From positions 17,933,093-17,997,092 of the forward strand of contig NC_081542.1 in NCBI RefSeq assembly GCF_901000735.1: 64,000 nt of DNA, written 5' to 3'. How positions within the stretch are numbered: the stretch's first letter is position 1; each line of letters begins with the position of its first letter. The notes under the pieces are model-generated. The model made no database searches, was not told the DNA's origin, and saw only the letters and a list, made by a program, of their open reading frames with translations. The DNA is from Corylus avellana. Lineage: Eukaryota; Streptophyta; Magnoliopsida; Fagales; Betulaceae. Position numbers and translations under genes: made by a program. Below, piece after piece: positions 12,480 through 48,224 of the stretch.

Positions 12480-13361
12480 TGACACAAAATATTTGTCATT
12501 ACCCAAAACGGCGCCGTTTTTATCTACTCAAAACGTAGCAGTTTTGGAAGCCCTCTACCATTTCCCCTAACCCTATCCACGCCCCTCTCTGTCACTCCAT
12601 CTCCTCCTCTCTCTGTCACTCTCCTCTCATCTCCGCCTCTCACTCTCACTCGCAATCGCACAGCCCATCGAAGGTCGCACTCGGTCGTCTACTCCCAACG
12701 AGAACGAGGTATTCTTCGTCTGTGACTCTGTTTTTTGTTTGTAAAAAACAAATCAATTTTGTTGCTGATTATTCGACTTTATATGTCATGTAAAAGTCGA
12801 TTAATCACCCCTCCTTGTTTGGTTCCCGAGAAAATGACGGAAAAAGACGATCAATAACCGAAATTTTGAGTTTTTTCTTTTCTTTTCGGTTGTTTGGGAT
12901 TCTGGGCCTTGGTTTTTAATCTCTCTTTTTCTGTTATTTGTTGTTATATAGTTTGGGTCAAATGCGTATGTTCAGTTGAGTCCTATACGATTTAGTTTGG
13001 TTTAATCGAAGTGAAGGTTTCCGATTTCTGGTTGGTTGCTGAGAAATTATAGAATAAAGAGAAGAAGTTGATTCGATCCTTGGTTTCTCATCTGAAGGTT
13101 TTACATTTTCAGGGACCTGATCGAAATAAATCCTGTAATTCAATACAAAATTGTGGCCCAGCCCAAACTGAAATTACCGACCGTCACCGTAACCGACTTG
13201 TTGGTGACCGTACGAATTACGGTCGGTGAATTTACCGACGTCACCTACCGTGGCGGAGCGAAGCACGGAAGGTGCAAATTTCTAACCGTATTATCCGACT
13301 CTCACCCCTGGTTTACTCTTATCCGGATTTGGATAAGCTTTAAAATCTTTCACAGAGAGAA
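12480..13361 (+). promoter_or_regulatory. Upstream region and probable promoter of the TXNDC9 gene
   Basis: This region holds a perfect 16-bp palindrome AAAACGGCGCCGTTTT at about 12507-12522, a pyrimidine-rich tract (12545-12650, CTCTCTGTCACTC-type) and a sequence like an exon end followed by GTATTCTTCG near 12708. A second GC-richer patch with repeated ACGGTCGGT/ACCGAC units lies at 13175-13260. Either patch could hold the start site, and an intron in the 5' UTR is possible. No coding sequence is seen before the ATG at 13362. Confidence 0.45.
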
Positions 13362-15425
13362 ATGGATCCGAACACAGTGAAATCGACTCTGTCGAACTTA
13401 GCATTTGGGAATGTGATGGCAGCGGCTGCTCGTGATTACCAGAAGGTCTTTCTCTTAATTACTTCTTAGTTATTTCTTGATTGTGTATTTTTTAATCCTG
13501 AACAATACACGGGAAAAGGGAGGGAAACTGATTGTGTGTTTAGTTGTCCTGTGATCTGTTAATTGAATTTTGGTACCTTGTGTGTCAGTGATGGGTTTTT
13601 GGAATTTTTGCAAGGGTTTATACATCAGCTAATTGCAAGTGCTTTGAGTTGCTTTTGTTCTTGATATTATGAGCCCAAGGAAAAAAAAAAAAAACTAAAA
13701 GAATCCAAATGTTACTTCTTCTTTCACATGATTAGCCCCTTGCAGAAGTATGGTTGTTTTTCCTCTTCATTGGCTTTTGCTTTTCATGGTTTTATAACTC
13801 TTTTGGTTGAAGCAAGCTGAGGAGTAGTTGATTTAGGTGATATTAAATGATGAGTTTGCTTGGTAATAGGAGAATACTTTTCTCATTAGGTAGAAAGACT
13901 GATATGGGTGGGTATGTTGTTTAAGCAACTATATTTGAAGTTGTTATGTTTGATTATATCACTTTGCAACCCACATCGCCAATTGTTTTATTTCTCACGT
14001 GCTTATATGATGTTACAGGAATTGCTTTCTCAAGATAAGGCACAGGCGTCAAGTTCTATTAACCAGGAAGTCGACCTCGATGAGTTGATGGATGTAAGTT
14101 TGATAGTGCTTCTTGCATCCAGCATATTAATGCAAATGTTTCTACTTATAAAGGTGTTCTTCCGCTGGGTGACATTAGGATCCTGAACTCGAAAAGTTGC
14201 ATGCCGATAGGATTGCGGCTCTCAAGGTTAGGCTTTTGATGTTTTTCCTAAATTTTCCTGGATGCATGATGGTATATATATTTGGAGTAAGCATTCTGTA
14301 ATTAGTAAGTATTTATGATAGGGGTTTCTGTTTTTTAATAGAAAGAAGCTGAAAAGCGAGAAGCATTAGTGAAGCAAAGGCATGGAGAATACCGGGAGAT
14401 TACTGAGGGAGATTTCTTGGGCGAAGTTACTAGTAGTGAAAAAGTTATATGTCAATTCTATCATCAGGAGTTCTATCGTTGCAAGTAAAGCATTTAGTCT
14501 TATCCTCCTCTCTCTATCTCTCTGTCTCTTCAAGTAGACACCCATGTGCACACACCTAATATCTGAATTGCAAAGTTTTCGGTTTCATGGAAAATGGTTC
14601 ATGTCAAATGGATCTCTTTAGGATAATGGATAAGCATTTGAAGTCCCTTGCACCAAGACATCTTGATGCAAAGTTCATCAAACTGGATGCAGAGGTTGGT
14701 ATGCATTGTTTTTTTCTGTTCATATGATTCAATAGAGAACTCATTAGTTATTTACTCAAGTTTATATGATTGCGGCATTGGGATTTGGGGATCTATTTAT
14801 ATGCAAAAGTTGACCCTTTAAAGAAATCAAGACGCAAAATAAGATACATGACTTGAATTGAAATGCAGAATGCACCCTTCTTCGTTGCCAAACTAGGAGT
14901 CAAGACTTTGCCTTGTGTCATATTGTTCAGGTGAGGGCATTTCTGTTGTTTTTCATTTTAACTATTAAAGAGGCATATCAGTACGGTGCCATCTGGCTCT
15001 TCGATGATGAACAATTGGTGGAATTTGCCTGTCTCAACGATTAGCCAAAGTCTCACAGTGCTGATAGGCCTTAATTATTGTTTTGATGACGGTCAGATTT
15101 GTTTGAGTTGTTGCATTAAATTATCATTGTCACAATTTTTTCTTTCAGAAAAGGAATTGCAGTAGATAGGCTGGTTGGGTTTCAAGATCTGGGAGGAAAA
15201 GATGATTTCACTACAAAGGCGCTTGAGGTCCTACTAATAAAGAAAGGTAACTCTTTTGTCCCGCGTGTTTTGCGTTGCTTAACTCGTGACAACTCCCTCA
15301 ACTATCATTATACAGGTATTATAAGTGAGAAGAAAGAAGTTGCAGATGATGAAGATGATAAATATGATGAAAATAGGTACAGGACAGTGAGATCCTCTTC
15401 CATTCCTGATTCTGATTCCGAGTGA
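13362..15425 (+). CDS. Thioredoxin-domain protein 9 homologue (phosducin-like family), complete, 8 exons
   Basis: Exons are 13362-13445, 14019-14093, 14179-14226, 14342-14484, 14622-14694, 14869-14930, 15149-15246 and 15316-15425. All junctions are GT-AG and the product is 230 aa. Residues 1-85 are a charged helical region (LEKLHADRIAALKKEAEKRE). Residues 86-185 form a thioredoxin-like fold. In place of the redox CxxC there is a single Cys116 (FYRCKIMDKHL), as in TXNDC9, and the cis-proline motif is TLP156. VGFQDLGGKDDFTT is a family hallmark. The tail is acidic and serine-rich (DDEDDKYDE ... SSSIPDSDSE), a phosducin-like feature. TXNDC9 proteins bind the CCT chaperonin and modulate actin/tubulin folding; that role is inferred from the family. 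Exon 1, intron 1 and most of exon 2 are duplicated in both arms of the palindrome at 23.8-35.4 kb. Confidence 0.94.
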
Positions 15426-16985: not shown

Positions 16986-17825
16986 GCCTTAACAGTTAAC
17001 ACAACACTCGGATGCATTATCCAAAGTTCCGAAACTGGCAAAAACAAGCATCAACGTCTATCTATATAAAAATGCAGTTCAGGTTTTCAATACACATCTG
17101 TTCAAAAAACACCAAATCAAGTAAAATTTCGCAAGGTCTAGGTCATAATTCCCAAGGTCCAGGTCATTTTGCATGCCATTTTATCAATTTTTATACCACT
17201 TTTGCCCTCACTCTGAATTGTTAAACCAAGCTGACCCATTTCACTATACTCACCACATATAAAGGCACGGTTAAATAAGAGGGAAAAAAAACATAAACAT
17301 CAAAAAGTCTTCTTCTGCGCCCTCCTTCAACAAATCGCAGGCCTCACATTCTTCAAAACTGTGGTGTTTTTTAACAAATGCTTTGATCTGAAGAAGGAAG
17401 ATCACATTAGAATCCGACCTAATTAACCAAAATATAAAATCCTATCCAAAGTTGTCAAGGAGCATGTTTTCTTTTAGTTTGGCCAAAATTTTAAATGAAA
17501 ATTCGTTTTTACAAACAACCTGATCCAATCTTGCATTGTTCTGAGAATTGAAATTCCTTAGAATTTGTAATTAATCAACTATTATATGTTGAAGACATGT
17601 AGCACCACTGTTTAGATTTAGATTTTCTAAAACAATAGTCATTAATTTAGTGGGTCTTTCAGCTTGTATAGATTTGGTTGCTGTAGAATCCTCTTGATCT
17701 CACATTATCTTGATGAGCGTCCCTCTTCTTCTTGGAATTTCTAGCGAGACTCAAAAGATAAGCATTGAAATATTAAAGCACAAGGAAGGGAGGTATAGAA
17801 CAGAGGCTATAAGAGTAATCTCTTG
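16986..17825. other. Gene-free stretch
   Basis: AT-rich sequence with no supported gene. A short tandem GGTCTAGGTCATAATTCCCA/GGTCCAGGTCATTTTGCATG pair is present near 17131-17175. Confidence 0.4.
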
Positions 17826-17964
17826 GTACAATATATCATGATGAATACAAAGGATTATGAAACTTTAATCATGAGTACTTAATCACACCTATCCATAATT
17901 AACACCTAGTTCCTTTTAATTTTCCTGAAATTTCACCTCCTACGACATCTAATTATGATCATGG

Positions 17965-18183
17965 TTAATTTCTTAGTACCATCCATTCAAACTTGTCCCC
18001 ATTCGTGTCACCTAGAAGAATCTCTTTAGTCAAATTAAAGTTGTTTAATTTGGATAATGGTGTACCCAAGATCAATCCCTCCGGAAGTGGGCCCTCAGGC
18101 CCGAGGTAAAGCCAATGAGGCTCATTTGGCGGACGACACTGCAAGTGACCTACGTCCAATTGGGCCCCCAGAGAGCCCACCAA
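17965..18183 (-). pseudogene. Conserved 72-aa coding fragment of unknown function, copy 1
   Basis: The frame ends ...KEILLGDTNGDKFEWMVLRN-stop and contains GHLQCRPPNEPHWLYLGP. Its partner at 48225-48443 differs at only a few residues. Upstream, the same frame continues as RRLCEALHAFCVKEASQFAR until a stop (TGA here, TAA in the other copy) at the same place. I do not recognise the family. The preserved reading frame, together with a shared upstream stop, suggests the 3' exon of a mobile-element or host gene rather than a working gene. Confidence 0.45.
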
Positions 18184-18940
18184 CTCGATACGTGCAAATT
18201 GACTTGCTTCCTTAACACAAAAGGCATGTAGAGCCTCACATAGCCGCCTGACAACCTCACTTCAATCACTTCTCAAATTCTCGGCAGAATATCATACAAC
18301 ACCTCATGAGTTATGCCTTACCTCCCTACAATAGTAGCAAGTTGCATTTTATTTGACATCGTGACCTTGCCATAACCGTATCACAATGGAAGGCAAAACA
18401 CGACCTGAGATGTCATTTGTAAGAATTAGTGACCAAACACCACGCCTAGTCAAAGCGCTGCCCAATAGCATAGGGACACTTGGCAAGGCACATGATGTCA
18501 AGAAAAAGAGTTATTGAATGTATGAAACTTTTCTATTCATTATATCCCAATACATAAATCTTTTAAGTTTACCATTTTTCTTGTAATGCTCCAACAATTA
18601 ATTAATCAAAATAATTAACTAAGAGTGTTATTCATATTGCATTTATACCAATGAACTTGTAATTAGCTGGATTCACTACACAGATTACTAACTATCCAAG
18701 TAAACTATAGCAAAAAGTGAAAAAGAATTATATTAGACAAACTAATAATATCTTCAAATGCGATTGATTATTATCAATACGAACTCAAAACTTCAAAATA
18801 AATAATACTATAAAATTAACAACTTCTATCTAATTATGCAAACCTGACAATAGAAGCTCTTTGCTTGGCACTATCATTCCAGCGAAAATGCTCAACCCTA
18901 AAGTCTAGCGAACCTACAAATCTGCGAAACACTAAGGTGT

Positions 18941-19485
18941 CACTACAAGAAATCTGATCATTAGGGGCGACTTCTTTTGGACGCTAAAAGTCCAAAAATG
19001 GACGTTGTTGATCAACAGCGTCGACGCTGATGAGTTGGACGCTAATGGTCCGATGCTGATGATCAACTGTTGATCATTAGTGTCGCCTTGGAAGTGGATG
19101 CTAATGATGACCTTTTACCGTCCACTATGTTGACGCTAAAACTCTTGTATGTTGGCCACTATATCGAGCTAGAACGGAAGCTGAGTGGACGCTAGTGCTC
19201 CACTATCAGTGTCCAATTTGAGTGGACGCTGATAGTGCAACCATCAACATCCACTTTCGTTTGGACGCTGATGGTTGCACTATCAATATCCACTAAAGTG
19301 GACACTAATGTGTCTGACAAGCTAAAAAAAATAAGGCAACGTAAGCGTCCAAATGAAAGTGGACGCTGATGGTTGCACCATCAACGTCCACTTTAGTTTG
19401 GACGCTGATGGTTGCACCATCAACGTCTACTTTAGTTTGTACGCTGATGGTTGCACCATCAGTGTCCACTTAATGTGCTTGGAAA
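18941..19485 (+). mobile_element. CACTA-type end with subterminal repeats, inserted in copy 1
   Basis: It starts CACTACAAGAAA, the classic En/Spm (CACTA) terminus. A dense array of GGACGCTGATGG / CCATCAACGTCC units in both orientations follows, as expected of CACTA subterminal repeats. At 19361-19477 three units repeat with a 39-bp period, each centred on GATGGTTGCACCATC. The matching TTTCTTGTAGTG end is not seen. The duplicate block has only TTTCACTATTAGAAGG at this place, so the extent of the insertion is approximate. Confidence 0.6.
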
Positions 19486-20377
19486 GGTAGTACATGAGTA
19501 AGTCTATGACTTAGTAAGTAAATTATCACATACTTGGTCATGCAATGAACCTCAGGTAACAATTCACATTCCTCAAATTTTGGTAACCAAGAATGTTATG
19601 AGTTTTGCAAAATGATACGTGCTGCCTCCATTATTATGTCAATAGGGAATAAGTGATTTATTTTTAAAGTAGAGTAAGCATACTCCCAGTAATAAGTCGC
19701 TTTATATTTTAATGTAGTAGATCATGCATAATAGGTAACTAAATCAAATACTCAATAGTCATAACTATCCTCCGTATGATCAATTTGATCCCTTAACTCT
19801 TTCTCGATAGGGTTGGTGTTGTTTTGAGTGACCTGTAGTACAACATCAGTGCCCCGAATATTGCTGGATACCGTCCATACTAGCAACCCAGCCGAGTTCG
19901 ACTTCGGGTAGCCTACGCCGCTAATGACGTTCGTTTATAGTGACACCAATCAAACATGATTGTGCTAGTCACACTATAAACAATTAGATCCAAGGTCAAA
20001 TATAAATATAAACATAAATTATGAGTGCACAAGCGAATGGTTATTAATTGCCTAATAACCGCTAATCGTAGAATCGCTTTTGGAGACAATTGACAAAAAT
20101 TCCTAACTGCCTATGGCAGTACGATTAGTGATTTTAAGGGTATGTGGAGGCGTTAGTAATCGCCAACTACCTACCCATATATATAATTAAACGACTTTTT
20201 TAATAATGTTTAAAATATGCCCTAAATAATACAAAAACCATTTAAATAGGTCCTAAAAAGAGACCCAAGGTAGGTACAAAACACCAAAATATGCCCAAAA
20301 GGCCCATAACTATAAAGCAGTTATGCAGTGCGGTTTTAGATTTAAATAATTGCTAATCGGAGGTTACTTCAAAATCG

Positions 20378-20581
20378 TTAACCGCCTAAAACGGCGTTGT
20401 TGCGATTACTAAAATTTGATAACCGCCTTGTAGACATCTTGCTGAAATCAAAAGATCTTTCATCCTCCTTTGCTGAAAAGAAAAATTGTTCTTCCCATTG
20501 TACTTCTCGATTTCGTATTTGGTGCTCATCATATTTACCGCAATTGTCAATTTGAATACTGAACCTTAGTTTTGATACCAC
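20378..20581 (-). pseudogene. Degenerate copia-like leader and gag start
   Basis: On the minus strand TGGTATCAAAACTA at 20580-20567 resembles the copia primer-binding site TGGTATCAGAGCTA. It is followed by a frame containing NREVQWEEQFFFSAKEDERS. A related frame is present in the other duplicate at 51077-51292. There the primer-site region is lost in a deletion of about 40 bp. No further copia domains are seen, so the identification is tentative. Confidence 0.4.
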
Positions 20582-20639
20582 TTGTTATGCAAAATACCAC
20601 AATTACGATAAATAAGACAAGTCAATTGCACACAATAAC

Positions 20640-20750
20640 GTCCCCAAGATGTAGCTCAATCGGTTAGGACCATGCCGCATAAAGCTGAGGTCACTAGTTA
20701 GAATCCCCCTCCTCCCTCTTGTACGGAAATGTCAAAAAAAAAAAAAAAAA
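20640..20750 (+). mobile_element. SINE (tRNA-like promoter, poly-A tail) with 14-bp target-site duplication
   Basis: A roughly 95-bp body and A-tail are flanked by identical 14-bp copies of TTGCACACAATAAC (20626-20639 and 20751-20764). Box A is TAGCTCAATCGG (about 20652) and box B is GGTCACTAGTTAGAATCC (about 20689), the internal RNA polymerase III promoter. The same position in the duplicate block (about 51284-51305) carries a single ACACACAATAACACCAAG and no element, so that copy is the empty site. A related copy lies at 46732-46842. Confidence 0.9.
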
Positions 20751-21461
20751 TTGCACACAATAACACCAAGATTTGTGTGGTTTTAAGTCACCACAACTTG
20801 ATTTTGTCTTAATTACATTTAGACAAAGTTATTAGAATGCCTCAGCCTTATCTTCCAAATAACTAGTAATTATTGATCGATAATTAAGGATATTTGTTGA
20901 ATTTTTGATTTTGCTTGTTGATGAATTAATAACTTTAGATATTTATCAATGAAGTTATTGTATCAAAATTAATGACCCCTCATGTGCTCCTTTGTTTGAA
21001 TATTTGTACAAAAGTAAATAGAAAAATATGAAAATTAAAATTAAAATCAAAATATACCAACTACTGATCGATCCTACTCTTATTCAATTTTCACAAACCT
21101 TTTAGACTATTAGATTTTAGTTAGGGTTAATTGTAAGGTGTCCCTCCTAATTGGGAAACCCTAGTTTTGATTTGAACGGTCAAGCCATGTAGTTTCACAG
21201 GTTTTCCAATGTGGTCTAATTAAACTTGTGTCTGTCCGTTAAAGTAGAAAGAAAATGTGCTTTGTGTTTCATGACAAATTTAATGATGATTTAATGAGTT
21301 TGATAATATAAATATTATCTAAATTACGAGCAAATTAAATCTCTTAGAGAGAAAATCATACAATTTTAGGATCAACAATTGGAGAATTTTTAATTTTCCC
21401 TCCAATATTGGAAGGGGATCAGATCCGTATCTAATATATATTAATTTGTTTGTTTATTTTA

Positions 21462-21837
21462 GGGTAAAGTCCACTTAACTTCGTCAAACTACCACCACAA
21501 TGATAATCTACCCCCTAAACTATCAATTACGACAATTTACCCCTCAAACTACCAAAACAATGACAATGTACCCCCACAATGCTAGCAAAATGACGAAATT
21601 ATCCTTATAGAATTTTCAATAAGACAAAAATACCCTTCAAATTTTGAAAAAAAATTAAAAATTTAGTATTTTTGTTTTTATTTAGTAAGAGTAATTTTAT
21701 CATTTTTTTTTAAAAAAAAAAATTTGGGGTACATTGTCATTGTTTTGGTAGTTTGGGGAGTAAATTGTTGCAATTGACAGTTTGTGGGTAAATTGTCATT
21801 TGAGTGGTAGTTTGAAAAGGTTAAGTGGACTTTACCC
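21462..21837. mobile_element. Mutator-type MITE (376 bp) with 9-bp target-site duplication
   Basis: The terminal inverted repeats GGGTAAAGTCCACTTAAC and GTTAAGTGGACTTTACCC (approximate) are flanked by perfect TTTATTTTA duplications (21453-21461 and 21838-21846). The 9-bp duplication points to a Mutator-like transposase. The duplicate block has one TTTATTTTA at 54005-54013 with nothing inserted. The interior is non-coding and itself partly palindromic. Confidence 0.85.
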
Positions 21838-21870
21838 TTTATTTTATGAGAGAGAGAAAGAAACAAATTA

Positions 21871-22250
21871 GGGGAAACTTCACTAAGGACCCCCAAACTT
21901 CCACCGGTTTTGAAATACCCCCCCCTAAACTTTAAAATCTCTCAATTTAGTCCCCTGAACTTTCAATTGCTTTCAATTTGGATCATTTCGTCATATTTTA
22001 AACGTCACATGACGTTTATACCCCTGACTTTTGTATAAAATTCAAACTTCTAAAACGTTTTTTCATTTTTAAAAAAACAAAAATCATGGATATTTTGGTC
22101 TTTTTTTTGAATTTTTAACGGCTAAAATTAACGAAAGGGTCCAAATTGAGAGTAATTGAAAGTTCAGGGAACTAAATTGAGAGATTTTAAAGATCAGGGT
22201 GGGTATTTAAAAACGGATGGAAGTTTGGGGGTCCTTAGTGAAGTTTTCCC
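21871..22250. mobile_element. Second Mutator-type MITE (380 bp)
   Basis: The ends GGGGAAACTTCACTAAGGAC and GTCCTTAGTGAAGTTTTCCC are near-perfect inverted repeats of 20 bp or more. The flanks AACAAATTA and AAGAAATTA are a 9-bp duplication with one mismatch. The duplicate block reads GAGAGAAATTAAACTCTGAC here without the element. It sits only 33 bp from the previous MITE. Confidence 0.82.
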
Positions 22251-22885
22251 AAGAAATTAAGCTCTGACCACATATATAATTAAGTCAGACGTATTGCTCC
22301 AGCCATTGTCATATTGGTGACGGAATTAATATATATATATTAGGTTAATCTGAGCATGTAATTATTTTCAACATGTAATTATTAATCTGTGATTTAATTT
22401 TTTTTTTTTAATATTTATCTATGTTCACATATATAGTTAAAATTCTTATGTATAAAACAAAATCAAACAAAATAATAAGCGTATTACATGAAATATAGTT
22501 TAAATTTAAGATTAAAAAAAAAAATGCATACAGTTATATTAATTCTAGATAAATCAAATATAATTTTTTAAAACAAATAATCGTCTATGTTTATAGTACT
22601 TGCTAGGAAAATGTAAGTGCTTTTCAACAATAGGAATGGAACACGACTTAAGGGATTTAAAAGCCTTCATAGAACTTCGCAACCACTAACCCAATTAGAA
22701 AATGAAGAAAAAAAATTGCAACCACTTTGTGATCACATTGCTCCTAACCACCGTGCACCCACAATGCAATCCAAGTCAATAATTTCCGTCCTTTTCAAAA
22801 GGATTTGAAAGCAAAGGATTTCAGAATTATTTTCTCATCCAAGTCTAATAATATATACTATATTTGCATCACCCCCAAAGGCTTA

Positions 22886-23846: not shown

Positions 23847-24152
23847 ACAAGCTTAAAAGTGATAAAAAAGTTGTTTGATTCGAAATGGGTTTTCTGCCCA
23901 GCAGAGAACGTTCACACCCTTCTAGCCGAACGTTCGTGGTCAAGACTGAACGTTCGATGGCCATGCAGAAAATCTGTTTTGAACATGTTTAGGTCTATGA
24001 CTTGTTTTAACTTTGATTTAGAACTAATAATAGATATTTTCACAGATTTGGAGAGTGTGAAATATCTGGAGGAATATTTAGAGGAACAATACGATCCGGG
24101 TGAGTACAAACTCACATGAATACTTGTTATTATTTTTCCCGCATTGCACGAC

Positions 24153-24866
24153 TACTCCTAGTTAATAGAACCTGACACCTGTGCCTTATCGTGAGAAAGC
24201 AATTCCTATAACATCGTATAAGCACGTGAGAAATAAAGCAATTGGCGATGTGGGTTGCAAAGTGATATAACCAAACATAACAAATTCAAATATAGTTGCT
24301 TAAACAACATACCCACCCATATCAGTCTTTCTAACTCATGAGAAAAGTATTCTCCTATTACCAAGCAAACCCATCATTTAATATCACCTAAACCAACTAC
24401 TCCTCAGCTTGGTTCAACCAAAAGAGTTATAAAACCGTGAAAAGCAAAAGCCAATGAAGAAGAAAAACAACCATACTTCTGCAGAGGGCTAATCATGTGA
24501 AAGAAGAAGTAACATTTGGATTCTTTTAGTTTTTTTCCTTGGGCTCATAATATCAAGAACAAAAGCAACTCAAAGCACTTGCGATTAGCTAATGTATAAA
24601 GCCTTGCGAAAATTCTAAAAACCCACCTCTAACACAGAAGGTACCAAAATTAAATTAACAGATCATAGAACAAATAAATACACAATCAGTTCCCCTCCCT
24701 TTTTTCCTTGTATTGTTTAGGAAAAAAAAACAATACAATCAAGAAATAACTAAGAAGTAATTAAGAGAAAGACCTTCTGATAATCACGAGCAGCCGTTGC
24801 CATCACATTCCCAAATGCTAAGTTCAATGGAGTCAATTTCATTGTGTTCGGATCCATTTCTCACTT
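24153..24866 (-). pseudogene. TXNDC9 fragment (exon 1, intron 1, most of exon 2) in the left arm
   Basis: On the minus strand it starts GAGAAATGGATCCGAACAC and matches 13356-14068 of the intact gene through the whole of exon 1, intron 1 and exon 2 up to ATTAACTAGGAG. Because the intron is kept, this is a DNA-level capture, not a retrocopy. Exon 1 still reads in frame through GATTATCAGAAG. Upstream and downstream of the fragment the sequence is unrelated to the gene. It is antisense in plus-strand orientation. Confidence 0.9.
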
Positions 24867-25169
24867 TGAAACAAGGAGAATGGACTCCAAGTGGAAACAA
24901 AGATTGCTCTTTCAAGGAGTTTTATGAGCATCATTTCCCTATGTTTAAGGGGTACCTCCAAAAGATAAAGGGACGGGGCCAAGAGAGAGGGCTTTAGAAA
25001 TATTTTTTAAAGCCTAAAATATGGAATTATCAACAATAATAAAAACCATTAAAAATCTTCCTATACTAGAGGGCTTCATGTTATCAGAGGATTTTGAAGG
25101 TTGATTATAAATTTTCTTACGTATATGGTCGTGTATAAAATCCAATAGGCATTTTCTCAAAGAGGTCAG

Positions 25170-26600
25170 CATCCTACAGCCCCGAAACTTTTGAGATGAT
25201 TCAAATTCCTCAGCACACAGTCCAACAATTTAGCACAAATATCGGGAAGGACATCGCCAATATATTTACCAATTTTTTATTCTTTTAATTATTTAATTAA
25301 AACAATCAAAACAAATTATCGAATTGTTCTTGATAAAGTGAAAGTGAGCATAAAAAATAAGTGATAGAATATCATTGTAATACCGTACTGAATTATTGTA
25401 AAGGATATTACGTTTCAAAAATTGATAAACACACCTTCCGCAATTGAGCTTGTTAGTCCAATCAAGTAGCTCTTACTCAATTTCGCCCAAATTTAGCTCT
25501 TCAACAAATGTATCGTAATTCTTGTCCCTATGCTGCGTTATCAATTGTATAAAACTTGATCTTTCACGGGAATTGAAGAACGCTGGATAGAAAAGCTGAA
25601 AGAAACTGTAATCCTTCATGTCCTCTAAATCCTCCAACTTCACCATGTCGGTAAAAATTTTAGAAAAAAATAAAACCATACCCTTCGGTAAACCCTGAAA
25701 TATATGCAAGTCATCGTACAAATTGTTTTGCAGTGTTTTGGACACCAGTCGACTGAACTGCAGTGTATCTAATACTATCCATTCCCTTAGTTGAATATCA
25801 TTTTTCACGTGAATCGGATCTAGAGCAATTGACATCTTTAGATTGTGACCGATCTTAATACTTTTCGAGATATTTCCACAGTAATAGCGTCCAAGGTGAA
25901 AGCTACGGAGCTTGTGAGCTATTTGGCGGAAGAGTAGTTTTCCATCGTCGCCAAATCTAGTAACGTTGTTATTTTTGCAACAATACTTAATGACATCCCA
26001 ACACCATAAAATTTTTTAACGTATTGCCATTGATCAAATGTCATGATTTTTGTACATTTTAAGGAATTATGATTTTTAAAAAGTGCAAATGTCAAAGAAT
26101 ATCAAAGCAGAAATTCCAATAAAATAGAACCACAGAATTTCCGGGGACTTTTAAGGTATTAAAAAGTTTTGGATTGCTATGATTTTTAGATATGTTGTGG
26201 GCTCTTGAATGAAGAAAATTTTAAGTCAAATTTCATATGATTTGGAGTTAAATTAAAAGTGTTATGATTTTTCTAAGCTTTAAAGGTCAAGGTGTCAAAC
26301 AGTTAAAGGGATTCAAAATGTATGAAATTTTTGAGTTGGTTTGTGATACCATTTGGTCATGATTTTTGAATATGTTGTGGGCCTTTGAATGAAGAAAATT
26401 TCAAGTCAATTTTTGCATCATTTGGAGTTAAATTGAAAAAGTTATTTTTTTTTTAAGCTCGTAAAATTAAGTTGTAGTCTGTTAAACACCTCCCCTCCTT
26501 ATACACTATTTACTTCATTTTTTCAAAACAAAAAAAAATCAATATCAAAGAATTTTCATTTTGAATCGAAGAGCATATGACCATTACAAAAAAAAAAAAA
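25170..26600 (-). other. Module A (left): broken coding remnant of unknown family
   Basis: The minus-strand frame at 25835-25473 (120 aa) includes LREWIVLDTLQFSRLVSKTL and FFNSRERSSFIQLITQ. Coding-like sequence extends upstream to about 25990 and downstream towards 25200, broken by stops. The non-coding 3' half (26040-26500) has two tandem ~175-bp units built on GAATGAAGAAAATTT and ATTTGGAGTTAAATT. Three other copies exist (27040-28430, 30700-32110, 32640-34030). I do not recognise the protein. It could be an old host gene, a mobile-element gene or an endogenised viral gene; nothing here decides between them. Confidence 0.5.
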
Positions 26601-27039
26601 AAAAACAAATTTTTGAAAAAAATATACCTGTTTGAAAAGGACACGTATTCAAACAGGGTTTTTAATTTTTTAAAAACCCTGTTTTTATAATGTCATTATA
26701 AATTAAAGGGCAGAGTTTTTTTTATTTTCCTTCTCTCTACAACCTCTCTCCCTTCTCTTTTTCTTTTCTCTCATCCATTCTTCTGAGCGTCATTTCTCTC
26801 CACCATTTCATCTATTTACTTCATATCTCGCCATCACCGTCCATCGAATTTCTGTCCTTTTTTGCGGCCAAACTCTTTCATTTGTTACCTCAATTTAATT
26901 TCCTAATTTTCTTGGTCACACACCTTAAAAAAAAAAAAAAAAAAAAAAAAAACTGGGTCTCTGATTCTAGATCATTTGTTTATAAGTATTCTGAGAATTC
27001 TCGTGGTCTGTTAGCACATTATATTTGTTTTTCCTTTTC

Positions 27040-28430
27040 TTTTGCAAACTTTCGAGATGATTCAATTTTCTCAGCACACAATCCAACAATTTGGCACAAA
27101 TATCGGGAAATACATCGTCAATATATTTATCAATTTTTGATTATTTTAATTATTTAATTAAAACAATCAAAAACAAATTACCGGATTGTTCTCGTTGAAG
27201 TGAAAGTGAGCATTCTGAATAAGTGATGGAATCTAGTTGTACTACCGAACTAAATTATTGTAAGGGATACTGCATTTCAAAAATCGATAAACACACATTC
27301 CGTGAATGAGCTTGTTAGTCCAATCACATAACCCATACTCAGTTTTGCTCGAATTTAGTTCTTCAACAAATGTATCGTAATTCTTGTCCATGTATTGCGT
27401 TATCAATTGTATAAAACTTGATCTTTCACGGGAATTGAAGAACGCTAGATGGAAAAGCTGAAAGAAACTGTAATTCATCACGTCCTCTAAATCCTTAGAG
27501 TTCACCATATCGGTAAAAATTTAAAAAAAATAAAAAATAAAACCATATCCTTCGGTAAACGCTAAAGTCTACTCAAGTCATCGAAAAAGTTGTTTTGCAA
27601 TGTTTTGGATACCAACCGACTGAACTGCAGTGTATCAAGCATTATCCCTTCCCTCAGTTGAGTGTCATTTTTTTCGTGAATCAGATCTAAAGCAAATGTC
27701 ATGTTTAGATAGTGACCGATCCTGATACTTTTTGAGATATTTTCACAGTAATAACTTCCAAGGTAAAAGCTACGGAGCTTGTGAGCTATTTGGCAGAAGA
27801 GTAGTTTTTCGTCCTTGCCAAATCCCATAACTTTGTTATTTTTGCAATGGTACTTAATGGCATCCCAACAGCAAAAACGTTTTTGAACATATTACCATTG
27901 ATCAAATGTCATGACTTTTGTACACTTTAAGGAGTTCCAAATATCACAGCAGAAATTTCAATACAATAGAACCACATAATTTTAGGGGACTTTTAATGTA
28001 TTAAAAAGTTTTGGATTGCTATGATTTTTGGATATATTGTGAGCTCTTGAATGAAGAAAATTTTAAATCAAATTTTGTGTCATTTGGAGTTAAATTAAAA
28101 AGAGTTATGATTTTTTTAAACTTGAAATGTCAAGGTGTCAAACAGTTAAAGGGACTCAAAATATATGAAATTTTTTAGTAGGTTAATTATTCCATTTGGT
28201 CACTTTTTTTGGATATGTTGTGGGCCTTTAAATGAAGAAAATTTTAAGTCAATTTTTGCGTCATTTGGAATTAAATTGAAAAAGTTATTTTTTTTTTAAG
28301 CTTGAAAAGTTAAGTTGTAGTATGTTAAATACCACCCCTCCTTATATATTATTCATTTCATCTTTTCAAAAAAATCAACATCAAAGAATTTTCATTTTGA
28401 ATCGAAGGGAATCTCAGTAAATGACATAAT
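27040..28430 (-). other. Module B (left): second copy of the unknown remnant
   Basis: The minus-strand frames at 27828-27562 and 27508-27242 match module A closely (LREGIMLDTLQFSRLVSKTL; FFNSRERSSFIQLITQ). They are split by frame breaks around 27510-27560, where module A is still open. The same pair of non-coding subrepeats follows at about 28000-28310. Modules A and B are direct repeats about 1.9 kb apart. Confidence 0.5.
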
Positions 28431-29190
28431 TTTGAATCGAACAAGTCAAAGAGTTATGAACTTGTATGAAGGGATCTCGATACCTGTGCAGATCCAGAGA
28501 CGGACCCAAGGGGACCGGTTGGGGCCCTGGTNNNNNNNNNNNNNNNNNNNNNNNNNNNNNNNNNNNNNNNNNNNNNNNNNNNNNNNNNNNNNNNNNNNNN
28601 NNNNNNNNNNNNNNNNNNNNNNNNNNNNNNNNNNNNNNNNNNNNNNNNNNNNNNNNNNNNNNNNNNNNNNNNNNNNNNNNNNNNNNNNNNNNNNNNNNNN
28701 NNNNNNNNNNNNNNNNNNNNNNNNNNNNNNNNNNNNNNNNNNNNNNNNNNNNNNNNNNNNNNNNNNNNNNNNNNNNNNNNNNNNNNNNNNNNNNNNNNNN
28801 NNNNNNNNNNNNNNNNNNNNNNNNNNNNNNNNNNNNNNNNNNNNNNNNNNNNNNNNNNNNNNNNNNNNNNNNNNNNNNNNNNNNNNNNNNNNNNNNNNNN
28901 NNNNNNNNNNNNNNNNNNNNNNNNNNNNNNNNNNNNNNNNNNNNNNNNNNNNNNNNNNNNNNNNNNNNNNNAAATAAAAAATGATCGGTCCCCCAAAATT
29001 TTTTTTTAGATCCACTTGAACTTTCTTGCCCCCTACTTCATCAAAAAAAAAAAAAAAGGTTTAAGGATTAAAAATGTTTTTTAAGGCGTAAATTACGCGT
29101 CCCCTTCCCCCAAGAAGATCCTCTGCCTCACTAAAAAAAAACTCACGCATACACGAAAAAAATGAACTTTCTCTTCCAGACTTGAGGGGT

Positions 29191-30404
29191 GTGTTTGACA
29201 ATAGAACGAGCCGTTACTGTAGCTAGAACGGTATTGTTCCAGCTACAGTAACAATCAGAAAATAGTACATTAGACCTGAAAAGCAATCCCCCTTTCTTTG
29301 ATAAAAATCACATCCCCTCTCTTCCCAATAACCCTATAGTAAAACAAACCCATATAACCTAACCACTCCCTAACTCCACTTATTTTCAACGAAAAAAAAA
29401 TTTCTAAAGCTTCTTCTTCTTGGCTTCTCCTAGATTTTTGAAAAAATCCCCATTTTCATTCTCTCAAATTCCTTCTTCTTCCTTTGTACGCAAACCCAGA
29501 CACAGCCACCTTCGAACCATATTTCTTCCCCAAACCCCTTCCATTTTTCATTTCGTCACACACCCACAGAGCATTTCTCTATTGACCCCTCTCTCGTCCG
29601 TGAGCGAGGATCAATGCAGTGCAGATCTACACACCACCCTCTTTTCTTTTCTTTTTCGTTGAAAATAAGTGGAGTTAGGGGGTGATTAGGTTAGATGAGT
29701 TTGTTTTACTGCAGGGTTATTGGGAAGAGAGGGGGATGTGATTTTTGTCGAAGGGAGGAGGATTGCTTTTCAGGTCTAGTGTATTATTTTCTGACCGTTA
29801 CTGTAGTTGGAACAGTACCGTTCCAGCTACAATAACGGCCCGTTCCACTGGCAAACACACCTGAGACTTCCTCCCCTTTCCTTCACAGCTTCACAACTAA
29901 CACCAGTCACCACCAAGTGAGAGACCGATAGTGTGAGGGAGTGAGATGTAGAGATTGAGAGAGAGCTGCTGGCTAGTTAGAAGAAGAAGAAGAAGAAGAA
30001 GAAGTGGGATTCTGGCCATATGTGTTAGTGAGGTAAAATTCTTATCATTTTCTTGTAAATTTCGTTATACTTGTCGGATTAGAAGCTATAAATTGTGAAA
30101 ATTTGTGAGACTTTGGGTTGGGTTTGAAAATTAGGGTTCATGTGATTTTGGGGATTTTGCTATATTTTTGAAATATTTAGTTTCTCTTTGAGTTTTTGTT
30201 CTACCCATTGAATTTGAAGTTTGAAATCATAATGATTTGGNNNNNNNNNNNNNNNNNNNNNNNNNNNNNNNNNNNNNNNNNNNNNNNNNNNNNNNNNNNN
30301 NNNNNNNNNNNNNNNNNNNNNNNNNNNNNNNNNNNNNNNNGTTGGAACAGTACCGTTCCAACTACAGTAACGGCCGGTTCTGTTGGCAAACACACCCCTC
30401 AAGT
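29191..30404. mobile_element. Centre of the palindrome: nested foldback with GGGGTGTGTTTG ends
   Basis: The sequence GGGGTGTGTTTGACAATAGA starts at about 29187. Complementary or related ends recur at about 29790-29870 and 30341-30405 (TTGGCAAACACACCCC). Between the first two, 29260-29400 pairs with 29655-29790 (CCACTTATTTTCAACGAAAA against its complement), with a loop at 29401-29655. The third segment (29880-30240) has a (GAA)n microsatellite near 29982-30003 followed by AGTGAGGTAAAATTC, which looks like a 5' UTR exon and splice donor. A 100-N gap (30241-30340) hides the junction. The TTTGGCAA core resembles the PIF/Harbinger-type ends at 48689 and 60549. Confidence 0.5.
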
Positions 30405-30699
30405 CTAGAAGAGAAAGTTCATTTTTTTTTGTGTATGCATGAGTTTTTTTTTTAGTAAGGCAGAGGATGTTCTTGGGGGAAGGGGACGCGTAATTTACGC
30501 CTTAAAAAACATTTTTAATCCTTAATTTTTTTTTAAATTTTTTATGAAGTAGGGGGCAAGAAAGTTCAAGCGGATCTAAAAAAAAAATTCGGGGACCGAT
30601 CATTTTTTTTTGTCATTTTGGCAATTGTCACCGGGGACCCAAATAATTTTTTTTTTTTTTGAAGTGGGGGGACCAGGGCCCCAGCTGGTCCCCTTGGGT

Positions 30700-32110
30700 C
30701 CGTCTCAAGATCTGCACAGGTAGGACTTTCATTTCGAGATCCCTTCGTACAAGTTCATAACTCTTTGACCTGTTCGATTCAAAATGATATCGTTTACTGA
30801 GATGCCATTCGATTCAAAATGAAAATTCTTTGACGTTGATTTTTTTGAAAAAATGAAGTGAATAATATATAAGGAGGGGTGGTGTTTAACATACTACAAC
30901 TTAACTTTTCAAGCTTTAAAAAAAAAAAAAAAAATCAATTTAACTCCAGATGAAGTGAAAATTGACTTAAAATTTTTTTCATTCAAAGGCCCACGACATA
31001 TCTAAAAATCGTGACCAAATGGAATCATTAACCTACTCAAAAATTTCATATATTTTGAGTCCCTTTAACTGTTTGACACCTTGACATTTCGAGCTTAGAA
31101 AAATCACAACTCTTTTTAATTTAACTCCAAATGACACAAAATTTGACTTAAAATTTTCTTCGTTCAAGAGCTCACAATATATCCAAAAATCATAGCAATC
31201 CAAAACTTTTTAATTCCTTAAAAGTCCCCTGAAATTATGTGGTTCTATTTTAATGAAATTTTTGCTTTGACATTTGGAACTCCTTAAAGTGTACAAAAGT
31301 CATGACATTTGATCAATGGCAATATGTTCAAAAATGTTTTTGCTGTTGGGATGTCATTAAGTACCATTGCAAAAATAACAAAGTTACGGGATTTGGCGAT
31401 GACGAAAAACTACTCTTCTGCCAAATAGCTCACAAGCTCCGTAGCTTTTACCTTGAAAGTTATTACTGTAGAAATATCTAAAAAACTATCAGGATCGGTC
31501 ACTATCTAAACATGACATTTGCTTTAGATCCGATTCACGGGAAAAATGACACTCAATTGAGGGAAGGGATAATGTTCGATACACTGCAGTTCAGTCGATT
31601 GGTATCCAAAACATTTCAAAACAATTTGTACGATGACTTGAGTTTTATTTTTTTCTGAAATTTTTACCGACATGATGAACTCTGAGGATTTAGAGGACTT
31701 AATGGATTACAGTTTCTTTTAGCTTTTCCATCAAGCGTTCTTCAATTCCCGTGAAAGATCAAGTTTTATACAATTGATAACGCAGTACATGGACAAGCAT
31801 TAAGATACATTTGTTGAAGAACTAAATCTAGGCGAAATTGAGTATGAGTTACGTGATTGGATTAACAAGCTCATTCACGGAAGGTGTGTTTATCAATTTT
31901 TGAAACGCAGTATTCCTTACAATAATTTAGTACGGTAGTACAACTAGATTCCATCACTTATTCGGAATGCTCACTTTCACTTCAACGAGAACAATCTAGT
32001 CATTTGTTTTTGATTGTTTTAATTAAATAATTAAAAGAATAAAAAATTGATAAATATATTGATGATGTATTTCCCGATATTTGTGCTAAATTGTCGGATT
32101 GCATGCTGAG
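30700..32110 (+). other. Module B' (right): unknown coding remnant
   Basis: Plus-strand reading from about 31380 to 31930 reproduces module B, with coding traces such as FSRLVSKTFQNN and FNSRERSSFIQLITQ. In-frame stops occur, for example in AGTTTCTTTTAGCTTTTCC near 31710 and at CATTAAGATAC near 31800. The preceding non-coding subrepeats lie at 30880-31260. It is more decayed than module B. Confidence 0.5.
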
Positions 32111-32639
32111 AAAATTAAATGATCTAGAAAGTTTTTAAAAGAAAAGGAAAAACAAAAATAATGTGCTAATAGACCACGAGAATTCTCAGAATACCCATAA
32201 ACAAATGATCTAGAATCAGATACCCAGTTTCTTTTTCTTTTTTTTTTTTTTTTAGGTGTGTGACCAGGAAAATTAGGAAAATAAATTGAGGTAAGAAATG
32301 AAAGAGTTTGGCCGCAAAAAAGGACAAAAATTTGACGGGCGGTGATGGCGAGATATGAAGTGAATAGATGAAATGGTGGAGAGAAATGACGCTCAGAAGA
32401 ATGGATGAGAGAAAAGAAAAAAAGAAGGGAGAGAGGTTGTAGAGAGAAGGAAAAGAAAAAAGCTCTACCCTTTAATATATAACGACATTATAAATTAAAA
32501 AACTCCGTCCTTTAATTTATAATGACACTAAAAAAACATGGTTTTTATAAATTAAAAACCCTGTTTGAATACATGTTCTTTTCAAACAGCTATATTTTTT
32601 TCAAAAATTTGTTTTCTTTTTTGTAATGGTCATATGCCT

Positions 32640-34030
32640 TTCGATTCAAAATGAAAATTCTTTGATATTGATTTTTTTTTGAAAAAATGAAGTGAATAGT
32701 ATATAAGGAGGGGTGGTGTTTAACAGACTACAACTTAACTTTACGAGTTTAAAAAAAAAAAAAAAAAAAACTTTTTCAATTTAACTCCAAATGACACAAA
32801 AATTGACTTGAAATTTTTTTCATTCAAAGGCCCACAACATATCCAAAAATCATGACCAAATGGTATCACTAACCAACTCAAAAATCTCATACACTTTGAG
32901 TCCCTTTAACTGTTTGACACCTTGACCTTTCAAGCTTAGAAAAATCATAACACTTTTAATTTAACTCCAAATCATACGAAATTTGACTTAAAATTTTCTT
33001 CATTCAAGAGCCTACAATATATCCAAAAATCATGGCAATTCAAAACTTTTTAATACCTTAAAAGTCCCCTAAAATTCTGTGGTTCTATTTTATTGGAATT
33101 TCTGCTTTGACATGCTTTGACATTTGCACTTTTTAAAAATCATAACTCCTTAAAATGTACAAAAATCATGACATTTGATCAATAGCAATACGTTCAAAAA
33201 TTTTATGGTGTTGGGATGTCATTAAGTACCGTTGCAAAAATAACAACGTTACTAGATTTGGCAACGATGGAAAACTCCTCCGCCAAATAGCTCACAAGCT
33301 CCGTAGCTTTCACCTTGGACGCTATTACTGTGGAAATATCTCAAAAAGTATAAGGATCGGTCACTATCTAAAGATGACAATTGCTCTAGATCCGATTCAC
33401 GTGAAAAATTATACTCAACTAAGGGAAGGGATAATATTGGATACATTGCATTTCAGTCGACTGGTGTCTAAAACACTGCAAAACAATTTGTATGATGACA
33501 TGAGTAGACTTCAGCGTTTACCCAAGGGTATGGTTTTATTTTTTTCTGAAATTTTTACCATAAGGTGAAGTCAAAGGATTTAGAGGACATGAAGGATTAC
33601 AGTTTCTTTTAGCTTTTCTATCCAGCATTCTTCAATTCCCGTGAAAGATTAAGTTTTATACAATTGATATGCAGTATAGGGACAAGAATTACAATACATT
33701 TGTTGAAGAACTAAATCTGAGCGAAATTGAGTATGAGCTACTTGATTTGACTAACAAGCTCAATCGCGGAAGGTGTGTTTATTGATTTTTGAAACGTAGT
33801 ATCCCTTACAATAATTCAGTACGGTAGTACAACGATATTCCATCACTTATTTGGAATGCTCACTTTCACTTCATCGAGAACAATTCGGTAATTTGTTTTT
33901 GATTGTTTTAATTAAATAATTAAAAGAATAAAAAATTGATAAATATATTGGTGATGTCCTTCCCGATATTTGTGCTAAATTGTTGGACTGCGTGCTGAGG
34001 AATTTGAATCATCTCAAAAGTTTCGGAGTC
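32640..34030 (+). other. Module A' (right): unknown coding remnant
   Basis: An open piece at 33374-33568 reads LREGIILDTLHFSRLVSKTL. Downstream stops interrupt the frame where module A is open. Near 33940-34090 another coding-like piece reads VLPDICAKLLDCVLRNLNHL and continues to a stop at TATATGTAAG. This is immediately followed by a linker and then the TXNDC9 fragment in the same orientation. Confidence 0.5.
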
Positions 34031-34346
34031 TATAAGATGGCTGACCTCTTTGAGAAAATGCCTATGGGATTTTATACACGACCATATATGTAAGAAAATT
34101 TATAATCAACCTTCAAAATCCTTTGATAACATGAAGCCCTCTACTATAGGAAGATTTTTAATGGTTTTGTTATTGTTGATAATTCCATATTTTAGGCTTT
34201 AAAAAATATTTATGAAGCCCTCTTTCTTGGCCCCGCCCCTTTATCTTTCGGAGGTACTCCTTAAACACAGGGAAATGATACTCATAAAACTCCTTGAAAG
34301 AGCAATCTTTGTTTCTACTTGGAGTCCATTCTCCTTCGTTTCAAAG

Positions 34347-35093
34347 TGAGAAATGGATCCGAACACAGTGAAATTGACTCCGTCGAACTTAGCATTTGAG
34401 AATGTGATGGCAGCGGCTGCTCGTGATTATTAGAAGGTCTTTCTATTAATTACTTCTTAGTTATTTCTTGATTGTGTTGTTTTTTTTCCTGAACAATACA
34501 AGGGAAAAGGGAGGGGAACTGATTATGTATTTATTTGTCGAGTGATCTGTTAATTGAATTTTGGTACCTTCTGTGTCAGTGGTGGGTTTTTGGAATTTTC
34601 GCAAGGCTTTAGACATTAGCTAATCGCAAGTGCTTTGAGTTGCTTTTGTTCTTGATATTATGAGCCCAAGGAAAAAAAAAACTAAAAACTAAAAAACTAA
34701 AAAACTAAAAACTAAAAACTAAAAGAATCCAAATGTTACTTCTTTTTTCACATGATTAGCCCCTGCAGAAGTATGGTTGTTTTTCCTCTTCATTGGCTTT
34801 TGCTTTTCACAGTTTTATAACTCTTTTGGTTGAAGCAAGCTGAGGAGTAGTTGGTTTAGGTGATATTAAATGATGGGTTTGCTTGGTAATAGGAGAATAC
34901 TTTTCTCATGAGTTAGAAAGACTGATATGGGTGGGTATGTTGTTTAAGCAACCATATTTGAAGTTGTTATGTTTGGTTATATCACTTTGCTACCCACATC
35001 GCCAATTGCTTTATTTCTCACGTACTTATATGATGTTACAGGAATTGCTTTCTCACGATAAGGCACAGGTGTCAGGTGCTATTAACTAGGAGT
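34347..35093 (+). pseudogene. TXNDC9 fragment in the right arm
   Basis: Sense copy of the same exon 1-intron 1-exon 2 fragment. It differs from the parent by substitutions shared with the left arm (CAGGTGTCAGGTGCTATTAAC in exon 2). It also has its own changes: CAG to TAG at the last-but-one codon of exon 1 (GATTATTAGAAG) and a small AAAACT expansion at about 34678-34723. The shared changes show that one captured copy was later duplicated in inverted orientation. It cannot encode the protein. Confidence 0.9.
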
Positions 35094-35429
35094 AGTCGTG
35101 CAATGCAGGAAAAATAATAACAAATATTCATGTGAGTTTGTACTTACCCGGATCGTATTATTCCTCTAAATATTCCTCCAGATGTTTCACACTCTCCAAA
35201 TCTGTGAAAATACCTATCATTAGTTCTAAATCAAAGTTAAAACAAGTCATGGACCTAAACATGTTCAAAACAGATTTTCTACATGGCCATCGAACGTTCA
35301 GTCTTGACCACGAACATTCGGCCAGAAGGGTGCGAACATTCTCTGCTGGGCAAAAAACCCATTTCGAATCAAACAACTTTTTTATCACTTCTAAGCTAGT
35401 CCTAAGGCCACATCAAGATCTCTAACATA

Positions 35430-37410
35430 CTCCCAGCCCATAATAACATGTTCATGCAAAAGAAAATATGTCCAACGAAAATAAAACGTTAACCCAAGAC
35501 TAAAACCTAAAACAACAATATAAGCCCAAAATCTAGCAACCAATCTATGGAAAACACTTACTAGCATAACAACTAGGTTAATAACAGGTCAAGTTAAGAA
35601 GGTTACCTCTCTAGAATAAGGCCTCTAAAGAAAGCCTTCCTTATTCTTCTCAAAACTCACAAAGCATTCAAACATAGTTTCGCTAGGGGTCAGAGGGGGA
35701 AATGAGGCTTAGAAGAGTGTGAGAGTGGGTATTTATAGGGTTAGAAAAGCTGAGGGCGCTATTGTGACACATTTGCAAGTTAGTGAACATTTGGTTGTCC
35801 TGGGGCGAACGTTCAGTGTACTATTGCACAGTGGTTCTAGGGTTGCAGGTCGAACGCTTGGTCATTACCTAGTGGGTCAATATTTGGTCAATGAACGTTC
35901 GGTGTACTATTACCCAATGGTTCTAGGGTTGCAAAGCAAACATTCAGTGGTCCCCTCTGCGAACATTCGATAAGAACCCCACAAATTCCAAAATCTTACC
36001 CCCAACAAACTCTAATGAACCGAGCAATCTTGCTAACCCTTCAACTAGGCTAAACACAGTATAGTAATTACTCAAGGCACTATACTGTGAGTGCTACCAG
36101 AAGTTAGGGAGTATATCTTGGCAGATGCCTCCTAACCCAATCTTAATCGTTGAGATCTTTGATGTTTGGAGCATCGACTTCATGGGACCTTCCCCAAACT
36201 CCTATTTACATCCTTGTCGCAGTCAATTATGTTTCTAAGTGGGTGGGAGTCATAGAGGGTGTTTGGCAAACCCCTTCGCACTGTTCACCAACCCACGACA
36301 CTGTAGCTTGGAATGGGCGCCGAAGACAGTCTGAAGAAAAGCAAACTGCTGCATGCTGACAGTNNNNNNNNNNNNNNNNNNNNTACTCCCAGCCCATAAT
36401 AATATGTTCATGCAAAAGAAAATATGTCCAACGAAAATAAAACGTTAACCCAAGACTAAAACCTAAAACAACAACATATGCCCAAAATCTAGCAACCAAT
36501 CTATGGAAAACACTTACTAGCATAACAACTAGGTAAATAACAAGTCAAGTTAAGAAGGTTACCTTTCTAGAATAAGGCCTCTAAAGAAAGCCTTCCTTAT
36601 TCTTCTTAAAACTCACAAATCACTCAAACATAGTTTCGCTAGGGGTCAGAGGGGGAAATGAGGCTTAGAAGAGTGTGGGAGTTATAGGGTTTGAAAAGCT
36701 GAGGGCACTATTGTGACACATTTGCAAGTAAGCGAACGTTTGGTTGTCCCGGGGTGAAAGTTCAATGTACTATTGCACAGTGGTTCTAGGGTTGCAGGTC
36801 AAACGCTTGGTCATTACCTAGTAGGTCAATATTTGGTCAATGAATGTTCGGTGGTCTCCCCCCCTGGGGTGAACGTTCGGTGTACTATTACCCAATGGCT
36901 CTAGGGTTGCAAAGTAAACGTTCAATGGTCCCCCCTGCGAACACTCGATAAGAACCCCAAAAATTCCAAAATCTTACTCCCAACAAACTCTAATGAACCG
37001 AGCAATCTTGCTAACCCTTCAACTAGGCTAAACACAGTATAGTAATTACTCGGGGCACTATACTGTGAGCGCTGCCAGAAGTTAGGGAGTATATCTTGGC
37101 CAAATATGATGCCTCCTAACCCAATCTTAATCGTTGAGATCTTTGATGTTTGGAGCATCGACTTCATGAGCTTCCCCAAACTCCTATGGCAATCTTTACA
37201 TCCTCGGCACAGTCAATTATGTTTTTAAGTGGGTGGAAGTCATAGCTTGCAAGACCAATGATCACAAAGTTGTGGTTCAATTTTTGAAAGACAATATCTT
37301 TGCTCACTTTGGTACTCCTCACACTATCATTAGCGATGGAGGAAAGCATTTTTGCAACTGGGTTTTTGAACATTTAATGAAGAAATATACTATAACCCAC
37401 AAAGTTGCAA
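35430..37410 (+). repeat. Tandem pair of ~0.95-kb gypsy-related units
   Basis: Unit 1 (35430-36250) and unit 2 (36384-37240) start with TACTCCCAGCCCATAATAA and end with an integrase-core start ([15 protein letters not shown]). Both contain several copies of the palindromic octamer GAACGTTC or one-base variants, as does the outer edge of the palindrome next door. Unit 1 is cut at about 36257 by AGGGTGTTTGGCAAAC, an end of a foreign element that runs into a 20-N gap (36364-36383). Confidence 0.7.
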
Positions 37411-48080: not shown

Positions 48081-48224
48081 GTACAATATATCATGATGAA
48101 TACAAAGGATTATATGAAACTTTAATTATGAGTACTTAATCACATCTATCCATAATTAACACCTAGTTCCTTTTAATTTTCCTCATGAAATTTCACCTCC
48201 TACGACATCTAATTATGATCATGG

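Follow-up and report, generated by a model that had tools for sequence, protein, structure and literature searches.

We analysed a 64-kb stretch of the hazel (Corylus avellana) genome, C2:17933093-17997092, here called the window; coordinates are positions within it unless a chromosome is named, and the genome-wide searches covered 369.9 Mb in 12 contigs. The window carries an intact gene of the PLP3 type (gene P) and, after it, two long arms facing each other, left (L) and right (R), in which pieces of a PLP3 gene are found in opposite orientation (Table 1). These arms had been seen in an earlier note on the same DNA and were reproduced both by self-BLAST and by an alignment of the two arms. 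Over their whole length, the identity of L to R is 93.6% when gaps are left out (4332 matches against 296 mismatches, hence a divergence of 6.4%) and 90.6% when they are counted.

Table 1. Features of the window, with the strand and the basis or content of each (UTR, untranslated region; LTR, long terminal repeat)
Feature	Positions	Strand	Basis or content
Gene P, intact PLP3-type gene	13362..15425	+	8 exons, 230 aa; exons hand-placed, open frame
Left arm of inverted duplication	23847..28531	-	self-BLAST and arm alignment
Outer end, left arm	23847..24148	-	same dispersed repeat as 35099..35400
PLP3 piece, left arm	24149..24871	-	~15 bp 5'UTR, exon 1, intron 1, 55 bp exon 2
Unit 1, left arm	25185..26571	-	self-BLAST
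Unit 2, left arm	27046..28412	-	self-BLAST
Upstream PLP3 piece, left arm	28416..28480	-	65-bp match, 86% to Q; lacks 11 bp
N gap, left arm/centre boundary	28532..28971	.	440 N
Centre contig	28972..30240	+	contains part of a dispersed repeat (29869-30240); 28973-29241 pairs with 30343-30611
N gap, centre/right arm boundary	30241..30340	.	100 N
Right arm of inverted duplication	30672..35400	+	self-BLAST and arm alignment
Upstream (promoter-side) PLP3 piece, right arm	30702..30798	+	97 bp, 90% to Q -144..-48; not in P
Unit 2, right arm	30802..32134	+	second copy of the gene-like piece of unit 1
Unit 1, right arm	32634..34023	+	gene-like, from a low-copy family whose closest relative found is on C11
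PLP3 piece, right arm	34339..35098	+	~15 bp 5'UTR, exon 1, intron 1, 55 bp exon 2; stop codon in exon 1
Outer end, right arm	35099..35400	+	dispersed repeat, LTR-like by inspection only

Intact PLP3 genes and their decayed pieces

The product of gene P has a Pfam Thioredoxin domain. Among the best 120 of the 584 relatives listed, the closest full-length one is a protein of Carpinus fangiana (99% identity), and many of the named plant relatives are annotated PLP3A or PLP3B. The name TXNDC9, given to the gene in the earlier note, was dropped on account of these annotations and because plant TXND9 is described as a clade apart from PLP3, with 33-38% identity between the two (PMC6320799). PLP3 is the better name for P, a choice that rests on the names of its relatives and not on a tree.

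A genome search with the PLP3 fragment gave five matches, all five candidates being scored: the two arms, P, a second PLP3 gene (gene Q) and 41 bases on C6, so that the piece is present at only four long places in the genome. The stretch matched in Q is C5:23370548-23371268, and Q is intact, with 230 aa. Between P and Q, 8 codons show synonymous and 4 show non-synonymous differences; at three sites near the C-terminus where P differs from the Carpinus protein, Q does not. Homology between P and Q starts only at -54. The stretch 12500-13346, directly upstream of P, has a CpG observed/expected ratio (O/E) of 1.2. It has no match in the 4.4 kb fetched upstream of Q, hence P may use a different promoter from its sister gene.

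The gene fragments reported in the earlier note were recovered by self-BLAST at 24149-24871 (minus strand) and 34339-35098 (plus strand), both against 13348-14073; in the right arm, the PLP3 homology stops at 35092-35098. Precisely, the piece of about 720 bp is composed of intron 1 (573 bp in P) and of 139 bp of coding sequence, 84 bp from exon 1 and 55 bp from exon 2. The arms contain more of PLP3 than the note had reported, the promoter-side pieces at 30702-30798 and 28416-28480 having been overlooked. In each arm the gene piece follows the upstream piece collinearly and on the same strand.

The exons of the arms are decayed. Both arms share the changes S8L, L10P, Q33H, A38V, S40G and Q44stop, at sites in which P, Q and the Carpinus protein agree, and of 45 codons each arm has 2 that differ from P synonymously and 9 in which the difference is non-synonymous or a stop. 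Each arm holds one of two decayed, oppositely oriented copies of the same gene, which is one mark of a hairpin-capable inverted pseudogene pair. The other mark is a single molecule with a defined loop, and the centre here is interrupted by two N gaps.

Order of events and donor

Over the shared stretch, identity without gaps was 93.2% for P-L, 94.1% for P-R, 95.6% for L-R, 95.2% for P-Q, 92.4% for Q-L and 93.3% for Q-R. When three sequences (P, L and R) were aligned, 29 columns split both arms from P, 18 were private to L and 13 to R. With Q added, there were 14 columns on the stem of the arms, 13 private to P, 18 to Q, 18 to L and 12 to R, two complex columns, and none that paired one arm with one gene. 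The arm-stem columns and the shared exon changes imply that there was at first a single PLP3 copy, which underwent some decay before its inverted duplication; this is the order (one copy, inversion later) that the earlier note had proposed. The four-sequence tree is unrooted, so the branching of the arms from the gene line may be older or younger than the split of P and Q.

The same note had the copy captured from P, as the parent gene in the same window. This part was not supported. The 97 bp upstream of the gene piece match Q at -144..-48 and are missing from P, and a genome search with this stretch found the right arm, the left arm and Q only (3 of 3 candidates); this search skips very common words, hence it shows no dispersed copies rather than proving that there are none. 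P in its present form cannot be the donor of the whole unit, and its parentage is not established, since the second intact gene has the upstream piece. The donor would be either Q or a common ancestor; alternatively, P would have lost the upstream piece later.

In the right arm about 3.5 kb (30799-34338) separate the upstream piece from the exon piece, and this insert contains two copies, about 85% alike by self-BLAST, of a unit of about 1.39 kb. The nearest relative of the unit that was found is a locus on C11, whose main pieces are 81-87% identical to it and one 149-base piece 94%. Searching the genome with 33100-34338, a query covering only that part of the insert, gave at least 48 rows (a lower bound, 40 of 102 candidates being scored): 4 in the window, 4 on C11, 10 on C5, 2 on C3 and, for the other 28, a single dispersed repeat of 84 bases at about 34252-34338. 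The loci on C11 (L056, C11:15531900-15541850), C5 (L058) and C3 (L059) form a low-copy, partly tandem gene-like family. The open pieces of the insert, like their two database relatives, gave no Pfam match above the curated cut-off. No credible match to a solved structure was obtained for the insert pieces or for the database relative P0122 (222 aa). A protein search with the single sequence of the insert product gave no match, whereas an alignment search gave two proteins, one 38% identical over 90% and the other 73% over 53%; no relative turned up in viral contigs when one of these two proteins was the query. The structure model of the product was poor (mean predicted local distance difference test, pLDDT, 42.8) and was not used. 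A likeness to the KEN domain of IRE1, considered as well, is supported by no analysis.

The outer ends of both arms belong to a dispersed repeat. With 40 of its 614 candidates scored, at least 40 matches were obtained, and 38 lie outside the window. Of these 38 copies, 32 start no later than the third base of the query, whose start at 35099 was chosen by us, and 22 extend to its last base, 35427, past the arm end at 35400. The centre likewise has dispersed-repeat sequence, at 29869-30240, with at least 47 matches (40 of 219 candidates scored).

The arms are a mosaic of these pieces, and we infer the joining events as follows. This chromosome would once have borne a third PLP3 5' end, consisting of the upstream piece, exon 1, intron 1 and the start of exon 2. 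About 3.5 kb with two C11-related gene-like pieces would have entered between the upstream piece and exon 1, and the exon 2 piece would have come to end at the dispersed, LTR-like repeat. The broken unit would then have been duplicated in inverted orientation. If it were transcribed through the centre, the RNA would form a long hairpin for Dicer-like enzymes, and the resulting small interfering RNAs (siRNAs) would act mostly on the arms themselves; through mRNA cleavage they would affect the intact genes only weakly. We consider it probable, at about 0.64, that the arms are such a third 5'-end copy, broken by insertions and then duplicated in inversion, and that they are now a decayed relic with no effect on PLP3.

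Several points weigh against this reading. The rest of the third PLP3 copy was not found by self-BLAST within the window, and a joining of pieces through repair templates could yield the same mosaic. The edges between the dispersed repeats and the PLP3 pieces are provisional, and the order of the contigs depends on scaffolding. Finally, an excess of C>T and G>A changes, mainly in the left arm, may point to past methylation and hence to a degree of silencing in the arms.

Hairpin potential and rival explanations

The scaffolding bears on whether the palindrome exists at all. The window has five N gaps, two of which are within the palindrome centre; the left arm, the centre and the right arm are three contigs, joined across 440 N and 100 N, and their arrangement as a palindrome rests on scaffolding. 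The two arms described in the earlier note are confirmed, while these gaps in the centre, with three contigs joined by scaffolding alone, had been overlooked. It could be argued that scaffolding set two distinct though related copies opposite each other, with no palindrome in the chromosome, as also the 89% direct repeats 35428-36255 and 36384-37245, which flank a further gap of 20 N, might suggest. These direct repeats adjoin integrase-like remnants recognised by eye and could stem from a nested LTR element or from duplication in the assembly. We regard an assembly product as unlikely. In fact, the centre contig starts about 60 bp past the end of the left arm, as judged by symmetry with the right arm, a shortfall compatible with a true palindrome whose loop sequence is interrupted by gaps. 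The left end of the centre (28973-29241) has its inverted counterpart at the inner end of the right arm (30343-30611), and this inner pair prolongs the arms toward the centre in self-BLAST. No additional arm copies turned up elsewhere in the genome in the PLP3-piece search, and the 6.4% arm divergence far exceeds the 0.38% heterozygosity given for a related hornbeam (PMC6972722).

The centre contig also contains a smaller inverted repeat (29188-29400 and 29648-29861, 88%), perhaps a small transposon, and a stretch related to it opens the right-arm contig at 30341. Elsewhere in the window there is a direct partial duplication (17818-22884 and 48073-56054), whose main pieces are 84-97% identical. 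Its copy at 48-50 kb includes a 5' fragment of a gene for a DDX23-type RNA helicase (48803-49858); a peptide word from this fragment does not occur at 17000-21000.

A DNA transposon with long terminal inverted repeats, similar to a Pack-MULE, might have taken up the PLP3 and C11 pieces and multiplied the arms. Several unrelated gene pieces do lie within one structure, and each arm ends outward in a dispersed repeat; this repeat, however, continues past the right arm end in 22 of the 38 outside copies. Moreover, no common 6-mer was present up to 25 bp outside (and 5 bp inside) the palindrome ends, although the left one may be cut and the original ends thereby lost, and the four long genomic places of the PLP3 piece include no carrier of it elsewhere. 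We judge a transposon of this kind very improbable.

The relic that we favour has also to be weighed against an active hairpin locus, in which, as the earlier note proposed, a transcript over both arms is diced to siRNAs that reduce the expression of PLP3 or direct methylation of its DNA. The repeat could fold into a hairpin RNA if it were transcribed, silencing by it being a hypothesis. For the joined PLP3 pieces a fold of -1190 kcal/mol was computed, against -129 and -178 for the single arms; in the predicted duplex 701 of 723 bases of L pair with R, and 594 bases lie in helices of at least 21 bp. Over the whole arms there are 75 perfect runs of at least 21 bp between L and R, which makes a long, near-perfect predicted stem. 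At the level of gene DNA, 246 of the 2181 21-mers of P are perfectly matched by one or other arm. In the modelled mature mRNA of P, however, this is true for only 25 of 810, and for none by both arms. For Q, perfect 21-mers number 12 (L) and 18 (R) of 201 over 62 bp on the 5'UTR side plus exons 1-2, with 11 further positions (R) and none (L) in its upstream region. Most of the potential perfect siRNAs would match intron DNA and not mRNA. The earlier note had expected about 700 bp of double-stranded RNA against exons 1-2; a read-through RNA would indeed be predicted to fold, but its target was overstated, with 139 bp of exon and 573 bp of intron.

Traces of methylation were sought in base composition. 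The arms are not depleted in CpG: their O/E is 0.72, not under that of the flanking stretches (0.41, 0.50 and 0.56), and the PLP3 pieces have 0.51-0.52 against 0.43 in P. This argument against an active locus is weak, the C11 source piece being as high as the arms (0.75). C>T or G>A changes account for 13 of 18 private changes in L, 5 of 12 in R, 5 of 13 in P and 4 of 18 in Q. With respect to P and Q together (9/31), three comparisons gave p = 0.007 for L, p = 0.48 for R and p = 0.02 for both arms (18/30). We give little weight to the L excess, which is one of three comparisons, even if it favours an active hairpin.

Precedents for an active locus exist in Mu killer (PMC3440606), IR71 (PMC12825306) and the inverted pseudogene pairs of rice (PMC2708354). 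The rice study reports that 21 of 38 gene-pseudogene pairs with complementary siRNAs were less than 10 kb apart, vs 437 of 11,956 pseudogenes overall. Inside this range falls the left piece, which begins 8.7 kb past the end of P, a distance that for this reason deserves serious consideration. The rice pair described in detail there gave, by contrast, no small RNAs from the parental gene (PMC2708354). P and Q are each intact in sequence. Joint knock-down of PLP3A and PLP3B harms microtubule-dependent growth in Arabidopsis (PMC11527243), so that strong silencing of both genes should be costly and would probably be selected against. On balance, silencing of PLP3 by hairpin siRNAs is possible, although we find it doubtful.

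The inverted repeat has the promoter-side piece of Q, and it is exactly this piece that P is without, so that siRNAs could act on the Q promoter only. One might imagine, then, a PAI-like trio in which siRNAs of the C2 hairpin hit the promoter of Q and spare P, and PLP3 output shifts from Q to P; we hold this scenario to be very improbable.

Known systems and meaning of the locus

In Arabidopsis, the copies of PAI are almost identical, and the single ones have been shown to be methylated. The hazel locus is similar to this system in having an inverted repeat plus intact unlinked copies of one gene. It differs from it in the identity between arms and genes, 92-94% without gaps, and in being known, here as in the comparisons that follow, from sequence alone.

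In rice, two inverted pseudogene pairs are reported with hairpin small RNAs on their duplexes; the stems are 185 and 155 nt long, and one pair has a loop of 1,283 nt (PMC2708354). The rice pairs and the hazel pair are alike in having two decayed copies of a gene piece, close together and in opposite orientation, from which one hairpin RNA is possible. In rice, unlike here, small RNAs were mapped, and the hazel PLP3 stem, of about 720 nt, lies within arms of 4.7 kb. IR71 of Arabidopsis is a transcribed long inverted repeat whose dicing products are mostly RNAs of 22 and 24 nt, those of 21 nt being fewer (PMC12825306, PMC4687873); both it and the hazel repeat are of kilobase size with a predicted long fold-back RNA, but IR71 is the one for which transcription and dicing are reported. 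Mu killer of maize silences a transposon, and the plants in which it does so have antisense transcripts from inside the locus, while those failing to silence have read-through transcripts from a flank (PMC3440606). Like the hazel arms, it is a partial inverted duplication of a gene with intact relatives elsewhere, and its centre resisted sequencing, as that of the hazel palindrome is gapped. Its target, however, is a transposase gene and its transcripts were detected, whereas the genes concerned here are host housekeeping genes.

No report of this locus was found among the open-licence papers listed. Inverted pseudogene pairs able to form hairpins are already known from rice (PMC2708354), and the PLP3 locus adds another member to them. 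Judged by its bases only, the locus is ordinary genome decay: PLP3 has two intact copies and one broken copy that was made into an inverted repeat, with one of the intact copies about 9 to 19 kb away. If small RNAs do arise from the repeat, the locus would offer a natural test of when inverted pseudogene pairs start regulating their functional relatives.

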